Below, in pieces: positions 19,919 through 31,545 of a DNA stretch of 64,000 nucleotides. The translations under genes and the position numbers were made by a program. The notes beneath the pieces were generated by a model. The model saw nothing but the letters and a program-made list of their open reading frames with translations. It did no database searches and was not told where the DNA came from. Source of the DNA: Nesterenkonia pannonica (GTDB taxonomy: Bacteria > Actinomycetota > Actinomycetes > Actinomycetales > Micrococcaceae); assembly GCF_019575955.1 (NCBI RefSeq), contig NZ_CP080575.1, positions 1,364,001-1,428,000 on the forward strand, written 5' to 3'. Positions within the stretch are counted from its first letter, which is position 1; the number at the start of each line of letters is the position of its first letter.

Positions 19919-21289
19919 TTACCAGCTCCAGGGGATCGCGCCCACGCCGAGCGAGACGGCCAGGACCACGACGCTGAAGATCCACATGGGGAAGAAGGAG
20001 TACTTGATGTGCTTGCCGATGTCCGCGCCTACCAGCCCGAGGCCCAGCCAGAGGGATGCGTTGAAGGGGCTGATGTAGGTGCCGATGACGTTGCCCACGA
20101 TGACCGTGTAGGTCACAGCGAGGGTGTCCACGCCGACCTGTGATGCGATGCCTTCGACCAGGGGCAGCAGGGCGAAGTAGTGGGCGTCGGTGCTCAGGAG
20201 CAGCTCCAGTGGGAGTCCGAGGACGCCCACGATGAGGTGGAGGTAGGGGATGGAGGATTCGGGCAGGAGGCCGACTGCGTCTGAGGCGAGCGACTCCAGC
20301 ATGCCGGACTCCTGCAGGATGCCGAGGAAGCATGCGGCGGCGAAGATGATCGCCCCGGTGCCCAGGGCGGCTCCGCCGTGTGCGCGGATGCGCTCCATCT
20401 GGTCGGAGACTTTGGGGTAGTTGATGATGAGCGCCGCACACAGGGCGATGAGGAAGCAGAGTGCCGGGGGACGATTTCGGTGACGAGGAGAGTCATGGCG
20501 GTGAGGACCAGGACGGCGTTGAGCCACATCTTCGTCCGGGTGGCGTCGGCGGGCTGCTCGGACCCGGCCGCCCAGTCTGTGCTGGCTGCGGTGTCCGGCT
20601 CTGCGGTGCCGATGCCGGTGTCGCTCGCGTCGCTGCCGGATCCGCCGCCGGCGTAGGCGAGGACCTTCTGGTGAGCAGCGATGCGGGCCTCTCGCGGTAC
20701 CCCAGGATGACGGCCATGCCGACCAGCAGCACCAGGCTGATGATCTGCACGGGGATGAGGTCGCGCCAGATGGTGACGGGGTCCAGGTCCAGTGCTGCCG
20801 CGGATCGGCCCACGGGACCGCCCCAGGGGAGCATGTTCAGGATGCCCATGCTGGTGCCCACGAGCAGCAGCAGCAGGTATCGGCTCATCCCGAGCCGCTG
20901 GTACAGCGGCAGCAGCGCGGGGATGGTGATGAGGAAGGTCGAGGCGCCGGCGCCGTCCAGGTGGCACACGGCGGCCAGCAGCACGGTGCCCACCGAGACG
21001 GCCACGACGTTTCCTCGCGTGAGCTTCACCGTAAGGCTGATGAGGGGTTGAACAGGCCCGCATCATTCATGATCCCGAAGAAGATGATGGCGAAGATCAG
21101 CATCACCGCAACGTCCATGACCGAGCCGAGGCCGGTCTCGAAGAAGTCGCTGATCTCGCCGGGCGTGAAGCCTGCGATGAGGGCGCCCACGATGGGGATC
21201 ACCGTGAGACCCACCACTGGGGATATGCGTCCCAGGATCAGCAATGTCGTCATAGTCCCGATGACCGCCAGGCCGACTAGGCTGAGCAT
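19919..21289 (-). CDS. citM: CitMHS-family citrate/divalent-cation:proton symporter
   Basis: A ~450-aa transporter with ~11-12 hydrophobic segments. Family features include VVGLTVIPIVGALIAGF, FAIIFFGIMNDAGLF, HLDGAGASTFLITIPALLPLY, LGILQESGMLESLA and VGNVIGTYISPFNASLWLGLGL. These transporters import metal-citrate complexes. ATG at 21289 is chosen because GGAGG lies 5 bases upstream; an in-frame upstream ATG at 21337 has none. Frames change near 21040, 20685 and 20469. The recorded TAA falls inside GCTTAC (19917-19922); if that is corrupted GCTGGC the protein extends ~8 residues. Divergent from its probable regulators citA/citB. Confidence 0.85.
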
Positions 21290-21428
21290 GTGTCCTCCGT
21301 GTAGGTATGTGCCGCCCGTGACCCGGGCCACACTCACTCTCCGACATAAGTGGCGCAGGTCACGCGCTTAATCGCAATAGGGTGATATTGGTCATATTGG
21401 TCGCAGCTCCCTGGGGCAGAATGGTCTG

Positions 21429-23067
21429 GTGCGACTTTCGCTGACGACCTACCTCTTCCTGCTCAACACGGTTCTCCTCGCGGCCGCCGTGGCTGCAGTG
21501 GGAGCGCTCTGGTTCGCCCATCACCACCGTGTGGTTCAGGCTGAGGGGGAGGAACGAGCCATGGTGATGGCCCAGTCCGTCGCCGCCATGCCGGCCGTTC
21601 GGGACGGCCTGGCGTCCGAGGACCCTCCCAGGAGCTCGGCCCGATGGCCGAAAGGCTCCGCGAGGCCTCCGGGTTCGAGTACATCGTGGTCGCTGACGAG
21701 GACGGCATCCGGCATTCCCACCCTGTTGAGGACGCGATCGGCCAGCCCTCGAGCATCGACGCCTCCTCCGTGCTGGCTTACAGCGAATGGACAGGCGTCG
21801 AGCGGGGCCTGCCGGACTCACACTCAGGGCGCGGACACCCATATGGGGCGAGGACGGCGAGGTGATCGGGTACGTCTCGGTGGGAATCCTCACCTCCGAC
21901 ATCGACGGAGCCATCTCAGAGGCGCTGCCCGTCATTGCCGGGACCCTTATGACCGCCCTGCTTCTCGGCGGGGCGGGTGCCTACGTGATCTCCCGGCGCA
22001 TCCGCGCGCGCACCCACGGGCTGGAGCCCCATCAGATCACCGAGCTGCTCGACAGCCGCGAAGCCCTCCTCTACGCCATCAGCGAGGGAGTGATCGCAGT
22101 CGATCACGACGGCCGAATCGTCCTGGCCAACGATGCGGCACGCAGTCTGCTGGGCCTGAGCGCCGAGGACATAGGTCAGCTGCCGGAACAGGCGAGCCTT
22201 CCCCAGAGGCTGACCAGCTGCTCAGCGGCGATGGCCCCTCCAGCGATGAGCTCCTGAGCATCGGAGACAGGATCGTCGTCTGCAGCCGACGCCCGGTGCG
22301 CGTCGGCGAGGTCGACGGAGGTGCCGTCATCACCCTGCGCGACCAGACTGAGCTGACCCAGCTCACCGGCGAGCTCGACGGCGCACGCACCGTCACTAGG
22401 GGCCTCCGCGCCCAGCGGCACGAGTTCGCCAATCGGATCCACACGGTCGCAGGCATGCTGGAGCTGGGAGCCGTCGAGCGCGCCAAGGACTACCTCACCG
22501 AGCTCTCCGCAGCGACGATCAGAGCCAACGCGCAGGTGACCGAACGCATCGGCGACCTCACTCTGAGCGCCCTCATCCTGGCCAAATCCGTCCAAGCCTC
22601 CGAACAGGAACGGCGCTCGACGTATCACCACTGAGCTGGCTGGGAGGTGAGTTCGAGGGACGCCTGCGCGACGACCTCCTGCTCATCGTCGGCAATCTCG
22701 TCGACAACGCGCTCGAAGCGACAGGCGACGGGGAATGGGTGGAGCTTCTCGTGCGGCAGCACGCCGTTGCCGGGGACGCTCACGATCACCCGAGCCCCTC
22801 CCGAGGTCTCGTCGAGATCCGTGTCACCGACTCCGGCCCCGGCGTGAGCCCCGAGACTGCGCAGCAGATATTCGCGGCAGGATTCAGCACCAAACAGACC
22901 CAAGGAAGCGACCGCAGGGGCCTCGGGCTCGCCCTGGTGCGCCAGGCATGCCGCCGATGGGGAGGAAACGTCGAAGTGGACACTGCCGAACGCACTGTCT
23001 TCACCGCCTACATCCCCGCACCAGCCCCGGCCGAAGCCGCAGCCGCCCCGCGGAGGCCTCACTGTGA
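21429..23067 (+). CDS. citA: CitA/DcuS-type sensor histidine kinase
   Basis: Two membrane helices (TYLFLLNTVLLAAAVAAVGAL and VIAGTLMTALLLGGAGAYVI) enclose an extracytoplasmic PAS-like citrate sensor; a cytoplasmic PAS follows (SREALLYAISEGVIAVDHDGRI), then the short phospho-acceptor region RAQRHEFANRIHTVAGMLEL with the His, the N box NLVDNALEAT, and DSGPGVSP and RGLGLALVRQACRRWGG ATP lid motifs. Frames change near 21630, 21815, 22195, 22612 and 23045. The corrected stop overlaps the citB GTG (GTGA, 23064-23067). Divergent from citM, so it probably senses citrate and controls that transporter. Confidence 0.85.
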
Positions 23068-23766
23068 GCCGCAGAGGCACCATCAGTGTCCTCGTCGTCG
23101 ACGATGACGTGCGCGTGGCTCAGAACCACCTCGAGCTCGTGGACTCGATGAGCGGCTTCTCCGTCGTCGCCGCCGCCCACACCGCCGCATGAGGCGCTCG
23201 CCGCAGTGAGGAAGCACGAGCCAGACCTGGTGCTCCTGGACCTGTTCCTGCCCGATGCCTCGGGCCTGGACGTGCTCAACGAACTGCGCGGGCCGCAGGC
23301 GGAGGCTCAGGGGGCTCGTGGATGTCCTGGTCATCACGGCGCTGCGCAACGTGGAGCACGTGCGCACGGCACTGCACAGCGGCGCGGTGTACTACCTTCT
23401 GAAGCCCTTTCCGCTGTCTGTGCTCAGGGAGCAGCTGGAGCGCTACGCGGCGGCTCAGCGCAAGATGACTCAGATGGGTACGGCCACCCAGGACGATGTG
23501 GACGGTCTGCTGGGTCTGCTGCGCCCGCGGGGAGGAGCCAGCCCCTGCCCAAGGGGCTGACGTCAGCAACGGCCGACCTGGTCGCGGAGACTCTTCGCGA
23601 AGCTGGTACGGATCTCTCCGCTGCCGAGGTGTCTGCCCGCACCGGCGTCGCCCGTGTGACGGCCCGACGCTATCTGGAGCACCACTGCGCCGAGGGCAGA
23701 GCTCAGCTGCAGATGAGGTACGGGTCGGCTTACCGCCCGGAGCACCGCTACCGGTGGGCCGCATAG
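23064..23766 (+). CDS. citB: CitB/DctR-type response regulator
   Basis: Receiver domain: VLVVDDDVRVAQNH acidic pocket, LVLLDLFLPDASGLDVL with the phospho-acceptor Asp, VITALRN and YLLKPF with the conserved Lys. The output domain is a CitB-type helix-turn-helix (AAEVSARTGVARVTARRYLEHH). Frames change at 23184 (TAGEAL recorded with GCCGCATG), 23305 and 23530. At 23728 the expected GRPEHRYRW is recorded as YRPEHRYRW (GCTTAC). Cognate regulator of the overlapping kinase; probable target is the divergent citM. Confidence 0.86.
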
Positions 23767-23865
23767 GCTCTGAGCCATGAGTGCCCCCTACGCCGGGACA
23801 TTGCGCAGTACACTGTGGCCCATGACATGCACCGTCCTGCGGTGATCTGACGGAGAGGCGGACAC

Positions 23866-24959
23866 GTGGCCACGATGGCGTTCAGTCACCAGACGCTCGG
23901 TCAGCGAGTGAGCTTCGGAGTGGGCAATACGGCGTCTGATCTCGCGGGGAGGTCGAACGGTTCGCCGAATCGACGGGCGCTCCCCGACGGGTCATGCTCA
24001 TCGCTGCAGAGAGCGCCGGGGATACGGCCGCTGAGGCTGCCAGCGGCCTGCCGGTGGTCCACTCCCATCGTGGTGCTGCCCGTCATGTGCCCCTGGAGGA
24101 TGCCCAAGCCGCCCGCGTCGAGGCGCAGCGCTCAGAGGCCGACCTTCTGGTGGCGATCGGAGGAGGCTCTGCCGTCGGACTGGCGAAGGCTGTCGCACTG
24201 ACCCACCGGCTGCCGATCATCGCAGTGCCCACGACCTACTCCGGCTCCGAGGGCACCAACATCTGGGGTATGACTGAAGCCTAAGCACAAAGACCACGGG
24301 GACGGATGATTTCGTGCTTCCGGCCGCTGTCGTCTACGACGCTGAGCTCGTTCGCGACCTGTTTACAGATCTCACGGTCGCCTCGGGCCTCAATGCTCTG
24401 GCCCACTCCATCGACGGTCTCTGGGCCCCGGGGCCAACCTGATCAACACCGCCTGGGCGGCGAGGCGATGCGCGCCCTGTCTGAGGGACTTCCGAAGGTG
24501 GCGAGCGATCCGCGTGCCAGCGAGCCTGGCCGCCAGCAGATGCAGTACGGCGCATACCTCTCTGCGGTGGCCTTCGCCTCCACCGGGTCAGCCCTGCATC
24601 ATAAGATCTGCCACGCTCTGGGCGGCGGGTTCGACCTCCCGCACGCTGAGACGCACGCTGTGATGCTGCCCTATGTGCTTGCCTTCAACGCGCCGGAGGC
24701 CCGATCTGCGGCGGAGCGCATTGCCGAGGCCTTCGGCGCTGAAGATCCGGTGGAGGGTCTGATGGCGCTGCGGGCAGCCATCGGCGCGCCCGGGGCCCTT
24801 CGCGACCATGGCCTCGAGGAGGCCGATCTTGACCGTGCTGCGGAGCTGGTGCTGGCCGCTGCCCCTTCCAGCAACCCGCGTCCTGTCTCTGCCTCCGATG
24901 CGCGGCGCATCGTGCGTGCTGCCTGGGCGGGAGAGGATCCGGCGGCGCTGAGCCGCTGA
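23866..24959 (+). CDS. Maleylacetate reductase (iron-containing alcohol dehydrogenase family)
   Basis: Reduces maleylacetate to 3-oxoadipate at the end of hydroquinone and chlorocatechol pathways. Motifs: VAIGGGSAVGLAKAVAL (NAD loop), AVPTTYSGSEGTNIWG, ASGLNALAHSIDGLW, and metal-ligand histidines in HHKICHALGGGFDLPHAETHAVMLPYVLAFN. GTG at 23866 is preceded by GGAGAGG at good spacing; ATG at 23875 is an alternative. At 24279 MTEAGSTK is recorded with GCCTAAGC and a premature TAA; other breaks are near 23955 and 24435. It is upstream of the dioxygenase gene but separated by a promoter, so it may be a separate transcript of the same pathway. Confidence 0.85.
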
Positions 24960-25024
24960 TCGGGCTGCGGCAGCGTCCCGCTTGTGCGTCGCGGCATTCC
25001 TCGTCCGAGGGCGCCGAATCATGC

Positions 25025-25081
25025 TTGACGTGGTCGGACGCTTGCGTAAAATGAGCCTTGCGGTGTGAGGTAAATCACACC
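25025..25081 (+). promoter_or_regulatory. Sigma-70 promoter with perfect operator palindrome upstream of the dioxygenase operon
   Basis: TTGACG (25025-25030), 16-base spacer, TAAAAT (25047-25052). Directly after the predicted start site lies GGTGTGA-GGTAAA-TCACACC (25062-25068, 25075-25081), a perfect 7-bp inverted repeat, placed to block the polymerase. The ribosome-binding site GAAGAGAGG follows before the ATG at 25100. This is a textbook repressor arrangement; the repressor is not identified in this window. Confidence 0.8.
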
Positions 25082-25099
25082 CTTGAAGAGAGGCTCACC

Positions 25100-26057
25100 A
25101 TGACGTACCTGCTCGGCTCTCACCACGTCACGCTTTCTGTTGCGGGCGCACAGGAGGACGTGGACTTCCACACGAAGGTCCTTGGTCTGAGGTTCATCAA
25201 GAAGACCGTCCTCTATGACGGTTCGATCCCCGTCTACCACCTCTACTACAGCAATGCGAACGGCGATCCCTCGTCGGTGGTCACCACGTTCCCTGGGGGC
25301 ATCAGGGAGTCTTCGGAAAGCGCGGAACTAACCAAGCTCGCGAGGTGATGCTCTCCGTTCCGGCGGCCTCCATGGATTTCTGGGCCGAGCGGCTGAAGAG
25401 CTTCGCCATCGACTTTGCGCAGGAGGAGCTCTTCAACGAGCGTCGAATCCTGCTCAACCACCCGAGCGGCCTGGAGTACGTGCTGGTGGGCGCCGAGGGT
25501 GATCCGCGCGTCGGTCACCCGGGCCACGGTGTTCCGCCGGAGCATGCGGTGCACGGCATCTACGGTATGGGCATTCACGCCTACGACATGGACCGGATGG
25601 TCGAGTTCGTCGATGATGTCTTCTTCAAGGCGGGGAGATCAGCGAGACCGGGGACGTGGCGCGCTTCCGTCTCGGCTCGGATGCGCACGGCAACTGGGTG
25701 GAGCTGCGCGGGAATCGCACTGATGAGCAGGGCACGTGGCGCTTCGCGGTTTACACCTACCACCACTTCGCCTGGAACCTGGACACTTTGGACAACCAGG
25801 AGGCGGTGAAGTTCGACATTGAGGGTGCTGGCTACACCGACGTCTCAGAGCTGAAGGATCGCACTTACTTCAAGTCGCACTATGTGCGGACCCCAGGAGG
25901 AGCTCTGTTCGAGCTGGCGGTCACTCATGAGGACGGCGGATGGGACTGCGACGAGTCTCCGGAGGAGCTGGGGAAGCAGTTCATGATCCCGCCGCACTTC
26001 GAGCAGGATCGCGAGAAGATCATGGCCCAGCTGGAGCCGATCACCGTGGAGGACTGA
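25100..26057 (+). CDS. Ring-cleaving dioxygenase of the vicinal-oxygen-chelate superfamily (LinE/PcpA/MhqO-like)
   Basis: Begins LLGSHHVTLSVAGAQEDVDFHTKVLGLRFIKKTVLYDG...YHLYYSN, the glyoxalase-fold module found in hydroquinone 1,2-dioxygenases LinE and PcpA and in Bacillus MhqO. A second module starts VHGIYGMGIHAYD and contains FAVYTYHHFAWNLDTL; the C-terminal TPGGALFELAVTHEDGG supplies the glutamate of the Fe(II) triad, with histidines from the module starts. Frames change near 25310 and 25640. With the neighbouring maleylacetate reductase, hydroquinone cleavage is the most likely reaction, though quinone-stress detoxification (MhqO-like) is the alternative. Confidence 0.82.
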
Positions 26058-26065
26058 TCCCTCGG

Positions 26066-26734
26066 ATGCGCTCCCACTCCGAGATCGCCCCCATCACGCA
26101 TGGTGAGCGCGCGGACGATGCTGGCGCGGTCGTCTACGGAGTTCACGGCCGCACCCAGAGCCCCGAGTTCATCCGGGAGCTGGCGGATCGCGTGGACCTG
26201 CCCGGGCTGCACTGGGTGATGCCGTCTGCCGCGGATCATTCCTGGTACCCGGGCGGGTTCATGGCCGATCAGGAGGAGAACCAGCCGCAGCTGGGGAGGC
26301 GCTGGCTGTCGTGGATGCCCAACTGGGGCGGCTGCTCGACGAGCGCGACGCCGCATGGGCCGCCCGTGGTGGTGCTCGGCTTCTCCCAGGGGGCGTGTCT
26401 GCTGGCCGAGTACCTGCTGACGCGACAGCCGCCGGTGGATGGTGCGGTCCTGCATACCGGCGGGTACATGGGGCCCGATGTGCGCAGCTTTGCGCCGGCT
26501 GTCGGGGCACCCCTCAGAACGGTGTCGGTCGAGCTGTTCTGCGCAGATGAGGACCCCTGGGTGCCGCTGCACCGGGCCAAGGAGACGGCGTCAGCGTTCG
26601 AGGCACTCGCTGAGGCGACGACGCTGACCGTCTACCGCGATAGTGAGCACCACATCACCGACCATGCCGTGTCGCGGATCCGCGCGCTCCTGGGAGAAAG
26701 CGCAGGTGCGCAGCGTGAGGAGCCCTTTGCGTAG
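26066..26734 (+). CDS. Alpha/beta hydrolase, phospholipase/carboxylesterase family (MhqD-like)
   Basis: The nucleophile elbow is LGFSQGACLLAEYLL (GFSQG), the acid ADEDPWVP and the histidine SEHHITDHAV, completing a Ser-Asp-His triad in a ~220-aa protein. Preceding features are VVYGVHGRTQSPEF and MPSAADHSWYPGGFM. Frames change near 26300 and at 26350, where AGGPPVVVLGFS is recorded with GCCGCATGGG. It starts 8 bases after the dioxygenase stop, so the two are one transcript. The same pairing (dioxygenase MhqO with hydrolase MhqD) is known from the Bacillus quinone response. Confidence 0.82.
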   Translation: MRSHSEIAPITHGERADDAGAVVYGVHGRTQSPEFIRELADRVDLPGLHWVMPSAADHSWYPGGFMADQEENQPQLGRRWLSWMPNWGGCSTSATPHGPPVVVLGFSQGACLLAEYLLTRQPPVDGAVLHTGGYMGPDVRSFAPAVGAPLRTVSVELFCADEDPWVPLHRAKETASAFEALAEATTLTVYRDSEHHITDHAVSRIRALLGESAGAQREEPFA

Positions 26735-26738
26735 GCAT

Positions 26739-28054
26739 TCATCGGCTCAGCTGCTCCTCCCTGAAGCCTTTCGAGTCCGACGAGCGCGCTGATGAGGAAC
26801 TCACTCTCTGCCTCGTTGCCAGGCAGCTGTAAGGCCCGGCGGTAGGCCTCCATAGCGGCCTCGGCGTCGCCTATGTCTTCAAGCGTCAGTGCTCGGGCGA
26901 TGTGGAAAGGGCGGAATCTCTCCAGCGCAGGCTCACCTGACAGCGCATCGAGCTGAGCCAATCCTTCGTGCATGCCATGTGCCCGGCCCCAGGCCACTGC
27001 CCGCCCCAGGCGGACCACAGGACTGGGCTCATAGCTCTCCAGCATGCGGTAGAGCACCGCTATCTGCGGCCAGTCAGTGGCGTCGAAATCCACGGCCTCC
27101 GCGTGAACCGCAGCAATCGCTGCCTGAATCGCGTACGGTCCCGCACCGGGCGCAGAGGCAGCCCACTCGGCCAGCCTCAGACCTTCATGAATAAGCGACG
27201 CATCCCAGCGGCTGCGATCCTGCTCCGCCAGGGGAACAGGTCTGCCGCCCTCATCAGTCCTGGCAGGCCTGCGCGCCTGGGTCAGCAGCAGCAGACCAAG
27301 CATGCTTACCGTCTCCGCTGAGCCAGGCATAAGCTGGCGCAGCATCCGTGTGAGGCGAATGGCCTCCTCCGTGAGGTCATCACGCACGTGAGCAGCACCT
27401 GCCGACCGCGCAAAGCCCTCAGCAAAGAGCAGATACACCACACGCTGCACCGCCGCCAGCCGCTCCGGGAGCAGCTCACGAGGCGGCACGCTGAACGAGA
27501 TTCCCATAGTCCTGATCCGTCGCTTAGCGCGGACGAGGCGCTGCTGCATCGTCGTCACCGGCACCATCAGGCCGTGTGCCACCTCCACTGTGCTCAGGCT
27601 TACCAGAAAGCGCAGGGTCAGGGCGATCCGCTCCTCGTGCTTCAGCACCGGATGCGCGCAGGCGAAGAACAGTCCAAGCCGCTCATCAGCGACCGGGCTC
27701 TCGTCTAAGAAGCTATCCGCGGAATGATCGCCGTTCCCCAGGCGAGATCGCGCTCATTGAGGGCCCCCAACCGCGGGATCAGCCGTGCCTGCGCCTGCTC
27801 GCGGCGCAATGCGTCGATTCCTCGTCGCTTGGCCGCCGTGATGAGCCACGCCTCAGGCACTTCGGGCACCCCATCGCGCCCCAGGTGCGCAGCGCCTGGA
27901 CCATCGCCTCCTGGACCAGCTCCTCAGCCAGGTCAAGGTCGGAGAACCGCCGGGCGACCGCGGCAAGCACTTGGGCTCGACCGTCGGGACCCAGCGATTC
28001 CAGGGCGCTGCGCACCGCCGCACCAGCTTCATCGTCGGACAGTGCGGGGATCAC
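26739..28054 (-). CDS. ECF42-type RNA polymerase sigma factor with C-terminal TPR-like domain
   Basis: N-terminal sigma region 2 (LDLAEELVQEAMVQALRTWG) and region 4 (LTLRFLVSLSTVEVAHGLMVPVTTMQQRLVRAK) are followed by the ~200-aa C-terminal extension (LPERLAAVQRVVYLLFAEGF, ... AIQAAIAAVHAEA, ... AYRRALQLPGNEAE) characteristic of ECF42 factors. These lack a classical anti-sigma factor and co-occur with DGPF/YCII proteins, exactly as here. GTG at 28054. Several breaks occur between 27700 and 27890 and one near 26775; corrected stop TGA 26741-26739. At 27598 an Ala codon is recorded within GCTTAC. Overlapping-operon arrangement with the next gene. Confidence 0.85.
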
Positions 28055-28064
28055 GACTCAGTCC

Positions 28065-28412
28065 CTAGTAAGGCGCCACGGGACGAATCTCCACATGCCC
28101 GCCCGGTTTTGAGCCCGGGCTCCTCTTGGCCCACGAGATCGCCTCATCCACGTCAGCGACCTCAATGATGTAGGTGCCGCCTACGAACTCCTGCACTTCG
28201 GCGAAGGGTCCGCTTGAAACCACACGGTCTCCGTCGGCACCAGTCTCCACCTTCACTGCGTGCTCCGGGTCCTCCAGTGCGAAAGACGAAACCACCACCC
28301 CAGCGTCGGTGATCTCCTGGTCGAAGGCGAAGAATTCTTCAGGGTTCGGTCCGCCGTCGGCACCGCAGTTCGGATCATCAATGCGGCCCATCAGCAGCAA
28401 TGCGTATTTCAT
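28065..28412 (-). CDS. DGPF/YCII-related domain protein, partner of the ECF42 sigma factor
   Basis: A ~115-aa protein beginning MKYALLLMGRID and containing VVSSGPFAEVQEFVGGTYIIEVADVDEAISWAKRSPG, the DGPF signature of the YCII-related fold. ATG at 28412 is preceded by GAGGAGAG; an in-frame ATG at 28439 is less well placed. It lies 10 bases upstream of the ECF42 start. In Streptomyces the DGPF proteins are encoded with ECF42 and are its regulated or accessory partners; the biochemical role is unresolved. Confidence 0.85.
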   Translation of the reverse strand: MKYALLLMGRIDDPNCGADGGPNPEEFFAFDQEITDAGVVVSSFALEDPEHAVKVETGADGDRVVSSGPFAEVQEFVGGTYIIEVADVDEAISWAKRSPGSKPGGHVEIRPVAPY

Positions 28413-28584
28413 GAGTCTCTCCTCAGCTGTCTCCGGCACCTGGGCCAGGGGTGGGTGTACGCCGAACTGGATCGCCCGACACCATCATGACGTACGGCGA
28501 TCGGCTATATCGACAGCCGAAGCCTTCGAGTTTTTGGGTGAGAGGGAGCGGGTGGGCCTGCAGCGTGCCGCTGCGCCGCGAGGT

Positions 28585-29116
28585 TCAGCCCAGTCGGTTC
28601 GCGAACGGGCGCTTGCTGTGTTCCGCCGTTCGGCGAAGTCCGTGATGAGCCGTCGTTCTAGGGCGCTGACGAACACGTCAGAGGGTCGTGCGCAGTCCGC
28701 CAGCACAGAAGCAGGGACGCGGCATCATTGAGTTGGAAGACCCATACACCTCCGCTGTGATGATCGGCAGTCCCAGCGCCGGTCCGTCGATACTGCTGCA
28801 GCCGCCGGTGGAGACCGTTGCGTCGCTTGCCGCTCGTCGCTCTGCCGATGTACAAGACCTGAGCGCCGGGGACCCATTCCTGGTGAAGGGTCTCGGGCGG
28901 AGCGGTGACGTCGCGTGTCTTGCCAGCCGCACTCAGTTCGAGGAACTGAGGCGGTTCGGTGGACTCGCGCAGGACAGCGTAGACGCCTGCACAGGTCGGG
29001 GGAGGGTCGTCACGGAGTCTCTCGAATGGGACGAAGCCGGTGTACCCGGCGGACTCCAGGCCGACGCGTGTCCAAGTGTCCGGGACGTACCTCGTGAAAT
29101 CCGTCTCTGCGTGCAT
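28585..29116 (-). CDS. GIY-YIG-like nuclease-fold protein
   Basis: Minus-strand coding with GVYAVLRES (first GIY-like strand), QVLYIGRAT (YIG-like strand), GLHRRLQQYRR and VWVFQLNDAASLLLCWR, the core order of a small GIY-YIG family common in actinobacteria. After frame changes near 28690 and 28625 it continues ERRLITDF and ends RPFANRLG with TGA 28587-28585. ATG at 29116. Function unknown: possibly DNA repair or a restriction-like enzyme. It shows no association with a methyltransferase here. Between this gene and the DGPF gene (~170 bases) nothing else is seen. Confidence 0.6.
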
Positions 29117-29269
29117 GCGTTACACCCCCGTGTTGCTTCGGGCAAGAGCCCACAAGATGGCTCACGTTGCCTATAAACAGCTCGAGCTCCGAACCAAGTG
29201 CGGTTCGGAGCTCTGTATCTTCCGCAACGTGGCTGATCAAGCCTCGCTTGCTGAAGATGTGCGGCGCGA

Positions 29270-29344
29270 TGGTGCCCCAGGAGGATTCGAACCTCCGACC
29301 TTCGGTACCGGAAACCGACGCTCTATCCCCTGAGCTATGGAGGC
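29270..29344 (-). tRNA. tRNA-Arg (anticodon CCG)
   Basis: On the minus strand: acceptor GCCTCCA, D arm GCTCAGGGGATAGAGC, anticodon arm TCGGT-TTCCGGT-ACCGA with anticodon CCG, T arm GGAGGTTCGAATCCTCC, encoded CCA (29272-29270). The 3' acceptor strand reads TGGGGC where seven bases (TGGGGGC) are needed to pair with GCCTCCA; one G is missing. This looks like the same homopolymer loss seen in the protein genes. Confidence 0.9.
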
Positions 29345-29381
29345 GGGGATCGCTTTCAGCGACCGACACAGATTACCAGAG

Positions 29382-29710
29382 TCAGGCGCTCACTGAGACT
29401 TCGTAGCTCCACAGTTCGGCGGACATGCCCACCGGCTTCTGCTTGGGCGCCTCATCCTGGTCCTTCTCACCGTGGGAGGCGCCGAACCGTTCTGAGCTGC
29501 GCCAGTTCTCGTAGTCCTGCTCCGAGTCCCAGCGCGTGACCACCAGCCACGTCGTGCGCTCGTCGGTGGGCTTCAGCAGCTCGAAGCCCTGGAACCCAGG
29601 TGTGCCCTTCATGGAGTCCTGGCGCGCGGCGAAGCGCTCTACCAGCTCGTCGCCTGAGCTTAAGCGGCCACCGTGATGGCGTTGATCTTAATGACAGGAG
29701 AGTCAGCCAT
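29382..29710 (-). CDS. Antibiotic-biosynthesis-monooxygenase-domain (heme-degrading-like) protein
   Basis: A ~108-aa ferredoxin-like ABM protein: VIKINAITV, ...MKGTPGFQGFELLKPTDERTTWLVVTRWDSEQDYENWRSSERFG and ending LWSYEVSVSA. The NAI, W and AHG-type spacing resembles actinobacterial heme-degrading monooxygenases (MhuD/IsdG class), but the heme ligand cannot be fixed by eye. At 29658 the expected VAAGSGDEL is recorded with GCTTAAGC, giving a false TAA and a +2 shift. ATG at 29710. It lies 14 bases from the end of the radical SAM gene and close to tRNA-Arg. Confidence 0.7.
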
Positions 29711-29758
29711 GCCGAGAGTCTATCGGGCGTGGCGCCCGAGTGCGGACCCCAGGCGGAA

Positions 29759-30843
29759 TCAGAACAGTGCGTTCTGGCTGGTCCCGGTGAGCTCCAGACC
29801 TGGGATCTCCACCTGGGCGCCGGAGGGGCTGAGGCCCTGGTCGGCTCGTCCGGGGACATGCGCGCCCGCCAGCGCAGGTCACCGTCCCGAACGAACCCAT
29901 GGCGCCGCCGCGCCTCGGCTGCGCGGGCGCTGAGCCACTGCTTGTACTCCTTCGACGCGTAGGTGCCGAAACCCTCTTGCCGCTGTACAGGTGGCGGTAC
30001 TTCGTAACGAGCGCAGGATGCTCCTGCTGCAGCCACTGCATAAACCACTCGCGCGCACCGGGCCGCAGGTGCAGGGCACCGGTGCTGACCCAATTCGCGC
30101 CTACCGCGAAGCGCCCCATGCAGCCAGTCCAGGTGGTGCTCCGAATCGGTCAGCCACGGGAGGATGGGCATCGCCAGGACGTTGACGTCCAGGCCAGCGT
30201 CGGCCACTGCCTTCACCAGGTTCAGTCGAGCAGTGGGGTTCGGTGTGCCCGGCTCCACGGCCTGCTGGAGGTCAGGATCCATGATGGCTAGGAGACGGCC
30301 ACAGAGACGTCGACCTGCGCGGATGCTTCCACGAGCAGAGGCAGATCTCGCTTCAGCAGCGGCCCCTTGGTCAAGACGGAGAAAGGTGTCCCAGAATCAG
30401 CGAGGGCCCGGATGATGCCCGGCATCAGCTGATATCGCCCCTCCACGCGCTGATAGGGGTCGGTATTGGTGCCCAGAGCCACATGCTCGCGCTTCCAGGA
30501 GGGCTTCGACAACTCCGCGCGCAGCACCTCTGCCACGTTCGTCTTGACGACGATCTGTGTGTCAAAATCTTCGCCCGTTCCCATATCCAAGTAGCTGTGC
30601 GTCTTTCTGGCGAAGCAGTATTTGCAGGAGTGGGTGCAGCCACGTGTGGGATTAACGGTCCAGCTGAAAGGCATATTCGACTGGCCAGGAACCTTGTTCA
30701 GTGCTGTTTTTGCTGCCACTTCGTGGAAGGTGATGCCCTCGAACTCAGGAGTGCGGACACTTCGAACGAGACCCTGCAGGGGATGAGGGTGCCGCGGCTG
30801 CTGTGCCTGCGTCCTCGTGAATCTTCTGGTTCTCCCACCGCAT
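29759..30843 (-). CDS. Radical SAM protein of the Rv2578c family
   Basis: The radical SAM cysteines are in NPTRGCTHSCKYCFAR (CxxxCxxC), followed by EDFDTQIVVKTNVAEVL, ALGTNTDPYQRVEGRYQLMPGI and SVLTKGPLLKRDLPLL, an order typical of the Rv2578c-like family. The corrected start is MRWENQKIHED at 30843, with SVRTPEFEGITFHEV in a shifted frame near 30780. Other breaks are near 30280, 30080 and 29860. It ends ELTGTSQNALF. The reaction is unknown; the SPL-like cluster motif implies SAM cleavage on a large substrate. Confidence 0.78.
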
Positions 30844-30901
30844 GCGACCTATTCGAACACAGATTCGAATCCAGGTCCATGGAGCCGACCGGGGCAGAAG
30901 G

Positions 30902-31545
30902 TCAGTACGCCACGGCGAAGCGCGTGCGGTGGTGCCTTGGGGCCTCGACCTCATCCACCAGAGCGATGGCCAGGTCGGCCGCAGACAGGTCGGACCGGCC
31001 CTCATCATCTGTGAGCAGCACACCGGAATCATCCGTCCGGTAGGTGCCGCGGCGCTCGCCAGGGTTGAACGCGCCGAAGCCCGCGGCAGGGGAGACGAAG
31101 AACCAGTCCAGCGCTTCGTCGCTGCGCTGAAGGTCCCCCATACCTCCGTCATCTCGAAAGCCTCCGGTTTGGCCTGTTCCGGGAACTTCGACGTCTCAAT
31201 CAGACGGGGCCCATCGGGCGAGACCCGCAGAGAGCCTACCCACCGATCACGCCCAGCCGCACGCCGTGCTTCTCCACCATGGGGATCAGCCTCTCGGCCG
31301 CCTGTTTCACCTGCCCCAGCATGTCCTCACGCGGGGCAATCGCCACCAGAATCACCTCCGCGCCATCCATGAGGCCCGCAAGGAATCCTCGTCCTTCACA
31401 TCCCCGCTCACATAGTTCACACCCTCAGTCGGAGACTCAGGGGCTCGCCGTGAGACGGCAGTGACCTCGTGGCCGCGGGACGCAGCTTCGCTCGCGATGT
31501 GGGAGCGCTGTAGCCGGTGCCGCCGAGAACAGTGATTCGAGCCAT
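30902..31545 (-). CDS. NAD(P)-binding oxidoreductase, NmrA/YwnB-like
   Basis: Starts MARITVLGGTGYSGSHIASEAASRGHEVTAVSRR once a frame change near 31500 is allowed: the GGTGxxG dinucleotide motif of atypical short-chain dehydrogenases. Later parts are EVILVAIAPREDML, LDWFFVSPAAGFGAFNPGERRGTYRT and SDLSAADLAIALVDEVE, as in small flavin-reductase-like NAD(P)H-binding proteins. Further breaks near 31380, 31240 and 31170. ATG at 31545 is preceded by GGAGGG. Substrate unknown. Transcribed with the radical SAM gene on the minus strand. Confidence 0.72.

Follow-up and report, generated by a model that had tools for sequence, protein, structure and literature searches.

A CRP/GlxR-type palindrome at a predicted internal promoter is the probable operator of a putative hydroquinone-catabolic gene pair in Nesterenkonia pannonica

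The binding sites described for CRP and for its relative GlxR are closely similar. The GlxR consensus is given as TGTGANNTANNTCACA (PMC4254451, in the part of the text available), TGTGA-N6-TCACA is described as a GlxR-type site in the available part of PMC7999487, and the E. coli CRP site is given as AAATGTGAN6TCACATTT, with GlxR listed as using a similar one (PMC5449483, available in part). The sign of the CRP effect depends on the position of the site according to the abstract of PMC5449483, and GlxR is portrayed as mostly activating in what is available of PMC4254451 and as an activator at ldhA in the corresponding part of PMC7999487. The operator of MhqR, as printed in the available part of PMC6798810, is a 9-9 bp inverted repeat, TATCTCGAA-aTCGAaATA, which in Staphylococcus aureus spans -6 to +12.

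In a 64-kb stretch of the N. pannonica genome (here called the window, whose coordinates are used throughout) a 140-nt spacer (24960–25099, + strand) between a reductase gene and a dioxygenase gene carries both a promoter and an operator-like repeat. The sigma-70-type promoter TTGACG-16-TAAAAT (25025–25052, + strand), found by sequence reading, script location and a promoter scan, has its -35 element at 25025–25030, a 16-nt spacer at 25031–25046 and its -10 element TAAAAT at 25047–25052. With 10/12 matches it is the sole sigma-70-like site that the scan returns on either strand of 23600–27000, and shuffles of this region give a mean of 0.4 such sites. It is followed by the palindrome GGTGTGA-GGTAAA-TCACACC (25062–25081, assigned to neither strand), which consists of GGTGTGA (25062–25068), GGTAAA (25069–25074) and TCACACC (25075–25081) and contains a perfect CRP/GlxR-type core, the inner 16 bases TGTGAGGTAAATCACA (25064–25079). 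The RBS-like GAGAGG of the dioxygenase gene (25088–25093, + strand, sequence reading) and its ATG start codon at 25100 (+ strand) come next, the core lying 20 nt from the ATG. The promoter, the perfect operator-like palindrome at the start site and the following RBS had all been described in an earlier sequence-only reading of this DNA; direct reading and a script confirm the letters and positions of the promoter, the palindrome agrees letter for letter, and GAGAGG is read ahead of the ATG as described. From the end of the -10 element at 25052, transcription is predicted to start at about 25059, which would put the centre of the site near +12; this centre (25071.5) is 28 nt from the ATG.

Being a palindrome does not in itself set the site apart: the 64-kb window has seven perfect inverted repeats of 7 bp with arms 6 nt apart, and what counts is the particular sequence of this one. 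The repeat could in principle act as an RNA hairpin of the leader, in stability or attenuation, and not as a protein site, and the fold predicted for the leader is indeed a stem of 7 bp closed by a loop of 6 nt. This fold hardly surpasses those of shuffled sequences, however (z -0.67; 53/200 shuffles are equally good), and the letters of the repeat match a CRP consensus that a hairpin would not need, so that we find this explanation scarcely credible.

The core TGTGAGGTAAATCACA agrees with the GlxR consensus at all fixed bases, the central TA included (PMC4254451, as far as available), and it equals the TGTGA-N6-TCACA of the accessible part of PMC7999487. Compared by eye, the 25062–25081 palindrome does not follow the MhqR operator pattern given in the available text of PMC6798810, and the two have solely an inverted repeat at the start site in common. 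The earlier reading took the palindrome as a lead to an unknown repressor that, like MhqR, senses quinones; with a core that is exactly of the CRP/GlxR type and unlike the MhqR operator, as the latter appears in that text, this assignment is not upheld, and we reassign the regulator from an unknown quinone sensor to CRP/GlxR. To judge by its appearance, the palindrome is a textbook CRP/GlxR site, in a position from which the gene would be switched off, rather than one for an undiscovered quinone sensor. A dedicated quinone-sensing repressor of the MarR/MhqR, TetR or GntR type, released by hydroquinone or quinone, would agree with the placement over the start, which resembles that of the S. aureus MhqR operator (-6 to +12), and with the relatedness of the dioxygenase to MhqO, but the letters are unlike the MhqR operator (both comparisons with the available part of PMC6798810) and identical to the CRP consensus.

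We consider it highly probable that the palindrome is the operator of a single GlxR-type CRP, and that bound CRP would block the promoter and so place the dioxygenase and hydrolase genes under carbon/cAMP control. CRP, with cAMP as in its relatives, would bind the palindrome centred at about +12 of the TTGACG/TAAAAT promoter and, sitting on the initially transcribed DNA, would block initiation or early elongation; the blocked promoter would keep the dioxygenase–hydrolase pair low, expression would rise as CRP leaves the palindrome, and hydroquinone ring cleavage would thereby come under global carbon/cAMP control. We infer the binding of CRP, cAMP as its ligand, the start near 25059 and the repressive effect from the sequence. 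Repression is the likely mode because a site centred near +12 is too far downstream for activating the dioxygenase gene; with the core so close to the ATG, this gene could be activated in the class I or class II manner only if transcription began within its coding sequence. CRP might nonetheless bind here and activate, say by way of a start located inside the dioxygenase gene or by influencing a different transcript, as would suit a regulator that activates in most cases (GlxR in the available part of PMC4254451) and does so at ldhA (PMC7999487, likewise in part). Against this, the class II start would fall at about 25113, inside the gene, and a near-consensus promoter lies directly upstream of the site, and we give activation little chance.

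In this genome the HTH_Crp_2 profile has a single strong match, at 64.3 bits. Five others are weak, although one of them exceeds the family cut-off with 30.9 bits; judged by eye from their translations, these five resemble SorC, ROK, DeoR and RpiR types. The strong HTH_Crp_2 domain is preceded by a cNMP-binding domain, with the two halves in different frames. The best matches of its DNA-binding region are solved CRP/FNR chains (3.5e-37 to 8.9e-37), namely 3d0s, 3h3u and 3i54, which we take to be M. tuberculosis CRP, and 4byy, 4cyd and 3r6s, presumably C. glutamicum GlxR. Of the 30 genus genomes 29, N. pannonica among them, carry this region at an identity of 94% or more, and the thirtieth (G006, 79% complete) has just a 29% match; the intact CRP of G002 is identical to that of N. 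pannonica in its DNA-binding part. These searches point to a single GlxR-type CRP encoded in the genome, with a DNA-binding domain that matches the type of site. Members of the cyclase family PF00211, which would produce the cAMP, are found by profile in 29 of the 30 genus genomes, N. pannonica being the miss; its own copy, found with a congener protein, is spread over three frames, one piece having a stop.

Split frames are seen in the reductase, dioxygenase, crp and cyclase genes, and perhaps in the hydrolase gene (window 23872–26734; L014; L170–L172). Since the breaks extend to the conserved crp and cyclase genes they suggest assembly indel errors, and such indels account most simply for the broken reductase, dioxygenase and perhaps hydrolase frames; real decay of the genes is an alternative that we keep in view. 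The split conserved genes and a completeness of 62% in a single contig (2.70 Mb) suggest an unpolished long-read assembly.

The dioxygenase gene (25100–26057, + strand; frame broken at about 25290–25330 and 25617–25660) is of the ring-cleaving PcpA/MhqO type, and is followed as the next gene by an alpha/beta hydrolase (Abhydrolase_2; 26066–26734, + strand) and preceded by a maleylacetate-reductase-type iron alcohol dehydrogenase (23872–24959, + strand, frames broken). For the dioxygenase, an intact orthologue from a congener matches PcpA (4huz) at 7.9e-65 over residues 4–311, against 3.2e-47 for MhqO (3oaj), and a congener orthologue of the reductase matches 3iv7 (deposited as alcohol dehydrogenase IV) at 5.1e-113 and the maleylacetate reductase 3hl0 at 1.5e-61. 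The sole solved relative listed for the hydrolase is the phospholipase/carboxylesterase 4h0c; part of the middle of the hydrolase fails to align to the protein of the congener, for which two compensating indels may be responsible. The ring-cleaving dioxygenase of the earlier reading is thus borne out, with kinship to both PcpA and MhqO, and its MhqD-like hydrolase proves to be an alpha/beta hydrolase of the carboxylesterase family, but the MhqD-like label was matched by no search. Dioxygenase and maleylacetate-reductase-type gene together read as a hydroquinone-catabolic set, and it is reasonable that a global carbon regulator should govern such a set.

In four listed Nesterenkonia loci a transporter gene, of the sugar-porter family by its L033 copy, precedes the reductase gene; no copy of this sugar-porter-type transporter is found in the window by tblastn at 1e-5. 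Ahead of the reductase gene, at 21429–23780, lie fragments of a histidine kinase and a response regulator, by eye possibly a citrate/dicarboxylate two-component system; a transporter-like gene runs on the opposite strand there. The flanking genes that could be recognised are the two-component pair and two more identified by eye, one for an ECF-type sigma factor and one of the YCII type; as far as the scanned ORFs show, this set argues against a dedicated quinone-sensing repressor. No MhqR-like gene was recognised among the ORFs overlapping 20000–31000, which were mostly judged by eye alone, in a stretch with broken frames.

Genome-wide, the exact core TGTGA-N6-TCACA occurs 13 times and the reversed pattern not at all, and the chance expectations are 0.9 from base composition and 1.9 from dinucleotide content, both taken from the window. 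The earlier reading had called for a search of the genome for further copies of the palindrome: there is no second copy of the exact 20-mer, as GGTGTGA-N6-TCACACC with zero mismatches has its sole match, in the window and in the whole genome, before the dioxygenase gene, but the search of the core is productive, with 12 more sites. Tolerating mismatches in the 20-mer gives no enrichment, either in the window (4 matches with up to three mismatches against a shuffle mean of 3.6) or in the genome (8 with up to two mismatches against 8 for the reversed control), and core sites with up to two mismatches number 10 in the window, fewer than the shuffle mean of 20.7. The lack of enrichment of the mismatch-tolerant 20-mer indicates that the signal sits in the exact CRP-type core, and the equal genome-wide counts that the outer GG/CC are not part of the shared signal. 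Summed over 30 Nesterenkonia genomes there are 146 exact core sites against 14 of the reversed pattern; because the dinucleotide content of the window predicts the forward pattern to be about twice as frequent as the reversed control, the excess in the genus amounts to about fivefold.

Pfam profiles run on the fragments adjoining these sites (20 neighbour and CRP fragments in all) reveal a varied set of neighbours: SBP_bac_3 and PaaX (L001), DUF4212 and an SSF symporter (L002), a PLD-like gene only, with a right-hand ORF of no family (L003), DAO and a xylose-isomerase-like TIM barrel (L004), NMT1 and IclR (L005), IclR and MTHFR (L006), a short ORF of no family (L008), Aldedh (L009), SBP_bac_5 and Amidohydro_2 (L010), ABC_tran and ROK (L011), ADH_N (L012) and a TPP enzyme (L013). 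Uptake or catabolic genes adjoin 10 of the 13 sites, the dioxygenase counted, with L003, L006 and L008 as the exceptions. The remaining 12 sites mostly have catabolic or transport genes of various kinds as neighbours, which again speaks against an operator dedicated to quinone sensing. Regulator genes next to such sites, which the earlier reading had proposed as candidates, do occur, and are of the IclR and PaaX types; the IclR-type gene has a weaker secondary match to MarR_2, but the 20 scanned fragments, from neighbours and CRP, yield no TetR, GntR or better MarR match. An IclR-type regulator gene is enclosed by the CRP-type sites L005 and L006 (G000 C1 1239800 and 1240686), which are separated by 886 bp; it lies next to genes for a binding protein of the NMT1 type and for a one-carbon enzyme (MTHFR).

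Some sites recur at orthologous genes, as seen for the DUF4212-symporter site (L002, L150 and L155, in N. pannonica, G002 and G010) and the SBP_bac_5 site (L010 and L152, in N. pannonica and G010), the congener contexts being 20 regions chosen out of the genus sites. The identical site TGTGAGTTAGCTCACA of L009 and L151 was set aside as not orthologous as far as seen, with no mutual protein match at 1e-12. Three congeners (G010, G004 and G016; L161, L167 and L169) have a divergent CoA-transferase-like/amidohydrolase-like pair, the gene kinds judged by eye, with a CRP-type site between, and such a site within this pair is also seen at L036 and L037, some 3.8 kb beyond the start of the dioxygenase gene.

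Seven of the 13 N. pannonica sites (L001, L005, L007, L008, L009, L012 and L013) lie 14–28 nt before a start codon that is preceded by an RBS, a count made without a random control, and L003 and L006 are ambiguous in this respect. Activation of the gene that follows from the usual upstream positions is unlikely for sites so placed. In the 20 chosen congener regions closeness to a start codon is clear in three (L156, L160 and L169) and doubtful in one (L157); we claim placement just before the RBS for N. pannonica and not as an established habit of the genus.

The dioxygenase gene is present in 9 of 29 congeners and, leaving out G007 (two partial matches near contig ends), eight upstream regions are complete. 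None of these eight orthologues has the site upstream; the reductase and dioxygenase genes overlap in one of them and are 12–41 nt apart in the other seven. The site is also absent in G036 and G059, of the same family, and the spacer DNA (24960–25099) has no similar DNA in the other 29 genus genomes. We also inspected 78 upstream regions, the best 80 of 129 loci minus L049 and L095, where the match begins near a contig end; five of the 78 are from the same genomes as congeners in the set of eight. An exact TGTGA-N6-TCACA site is found in 0/78 of these regions (best of 129 loci), and one-mismatch sites are found in three of them (L039 twice, L065 and L111). With up to two mismatches there are 17 sites in the 78 (best of 129 loci) against 3 of the reversed pattern, but by shuffling there is no clear enrichment (13 of these 78 loci have such sites, where shuffles average 8 and reach at most 15). 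Degenerate CRP-like sites in five Arthrobacter loci (e.g. AGTGATGTGAATCACC) were rejected, as the 78-locus set has no excess over shuffles. The Arthrobacter loci L069, L073, L075, L077 and L078 have in common an AGTGA-N5-ATCAy-like element about 75 nt before the dioxygenase ATG.

Absence of the site from relatives had been named beforehand as evidence against the proposed operator, and this is partly what we find, as there is no exact site in the eight congeners or the 78 regions. Since neither site nor spacer was found in relatives, promoter and operator appear peculiar to the N. pannonica lineage among the genomes examined. This distribution agrees with recruitment by a global regulator and argues against an operator specific to the pathway, which would be expected to move together with its operon. 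The absence of the site from the eight congeners and, as an exact site, from all 78 regions adds to the case against a dedicated quinone-sensing repressor, which we regard as quite improbable. For a CRP site conservation is not required, and its lack limits the age of the CRP–dioxygenase link.

The restricted distribution also leaves room for chance, which we rate low. That the site is a chance match or a decayed relic without function in this strain would agree with its not being found in congeners, with the broken reading frames, and with the 0.9–1.9 chance sites expected genome-wide; however, a perfect site stands exactly between the -10 element and the RBS, the genome has 13 sites where one or two are expected, and the frame breaks are found in the conserved crp and cyclase genes as well, suggesting assembly errors, so that this explanation has only a slim probability. 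Most likely the palindrome is an ordinary operator of the CRP/GlxR kind, belonging to an internal promoter that is specific to this lineage. A more specific scenario, which we offer tentatively and at somewhat less than even odds, is that a segment of about 100 nt with a strong promoter and a perfect operator arose between the reductase and dioxygenase genes in one lineage, uncoupling the two, with CRP as a direct roadblock repressor of hydroquinone ring cleavage and placement just before the RBS perhaps used by CRP at several other catabolic genes of this genome.

With CRP as the probable regulator, the search for a quinone-sensing repressor gives way to a direct test of a known global one, aromatic ring cleavage joins the likely CRP/GlxR targets of a Nesterenkonia, and the 13 TGTGA-N6-TCACA sites form a short list of candidates in this genome. 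We found no literature on CRP control in Nesterenkonia among titles and the beginnings of abstracts on this genus with CRP and cAMP.

Among known systems, likeness to M. tuberculosis CRP (Rv3676) lies in the DNA-binding region, which matches the chains we take to be that protein at 3.5e-37 to 5.1e-37. PcpA-type hydroquinone ring cleavage is a parallel on account of the dioxygenase, of which 4huz is the best solved relative, and of the maleylacetate-reductase-type neighbour, but here the next gene is an Abhydrolase_2 hydrolase and hydroquinone is a putative substrate. The MhqR regulon of Bacillus and Staphylococcus (mhqRED, mhqNOP, azoR2) is comparable in the MhqO-related dioxygenase downstream and in the operator at the start, the latter as presented in the available part of PMC6798810, although the operator letters differ here, no mhqR-like gene was recognised nearby by eye, and a set that includes a maleylacetate reductase suggests catabolism. 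The C. glutamicum GlxR regulon (CRP/FNR) has the same site consensus (PMC4254451, as far as available) and a regulator with a related DNA-binding domain, and a cyclase-family gene is present in N. pannonica; its global metabolic role, with the glyoxylate bypass named in the accessible text of PMC5449483, is a further likeness. It differs in that GlxR is mostly an activator in the available text of PMC4254451, whereas the target here would be a PcpA-type dioxygenase gene, and the site, downstream of the predicted promoter, suggests repression.
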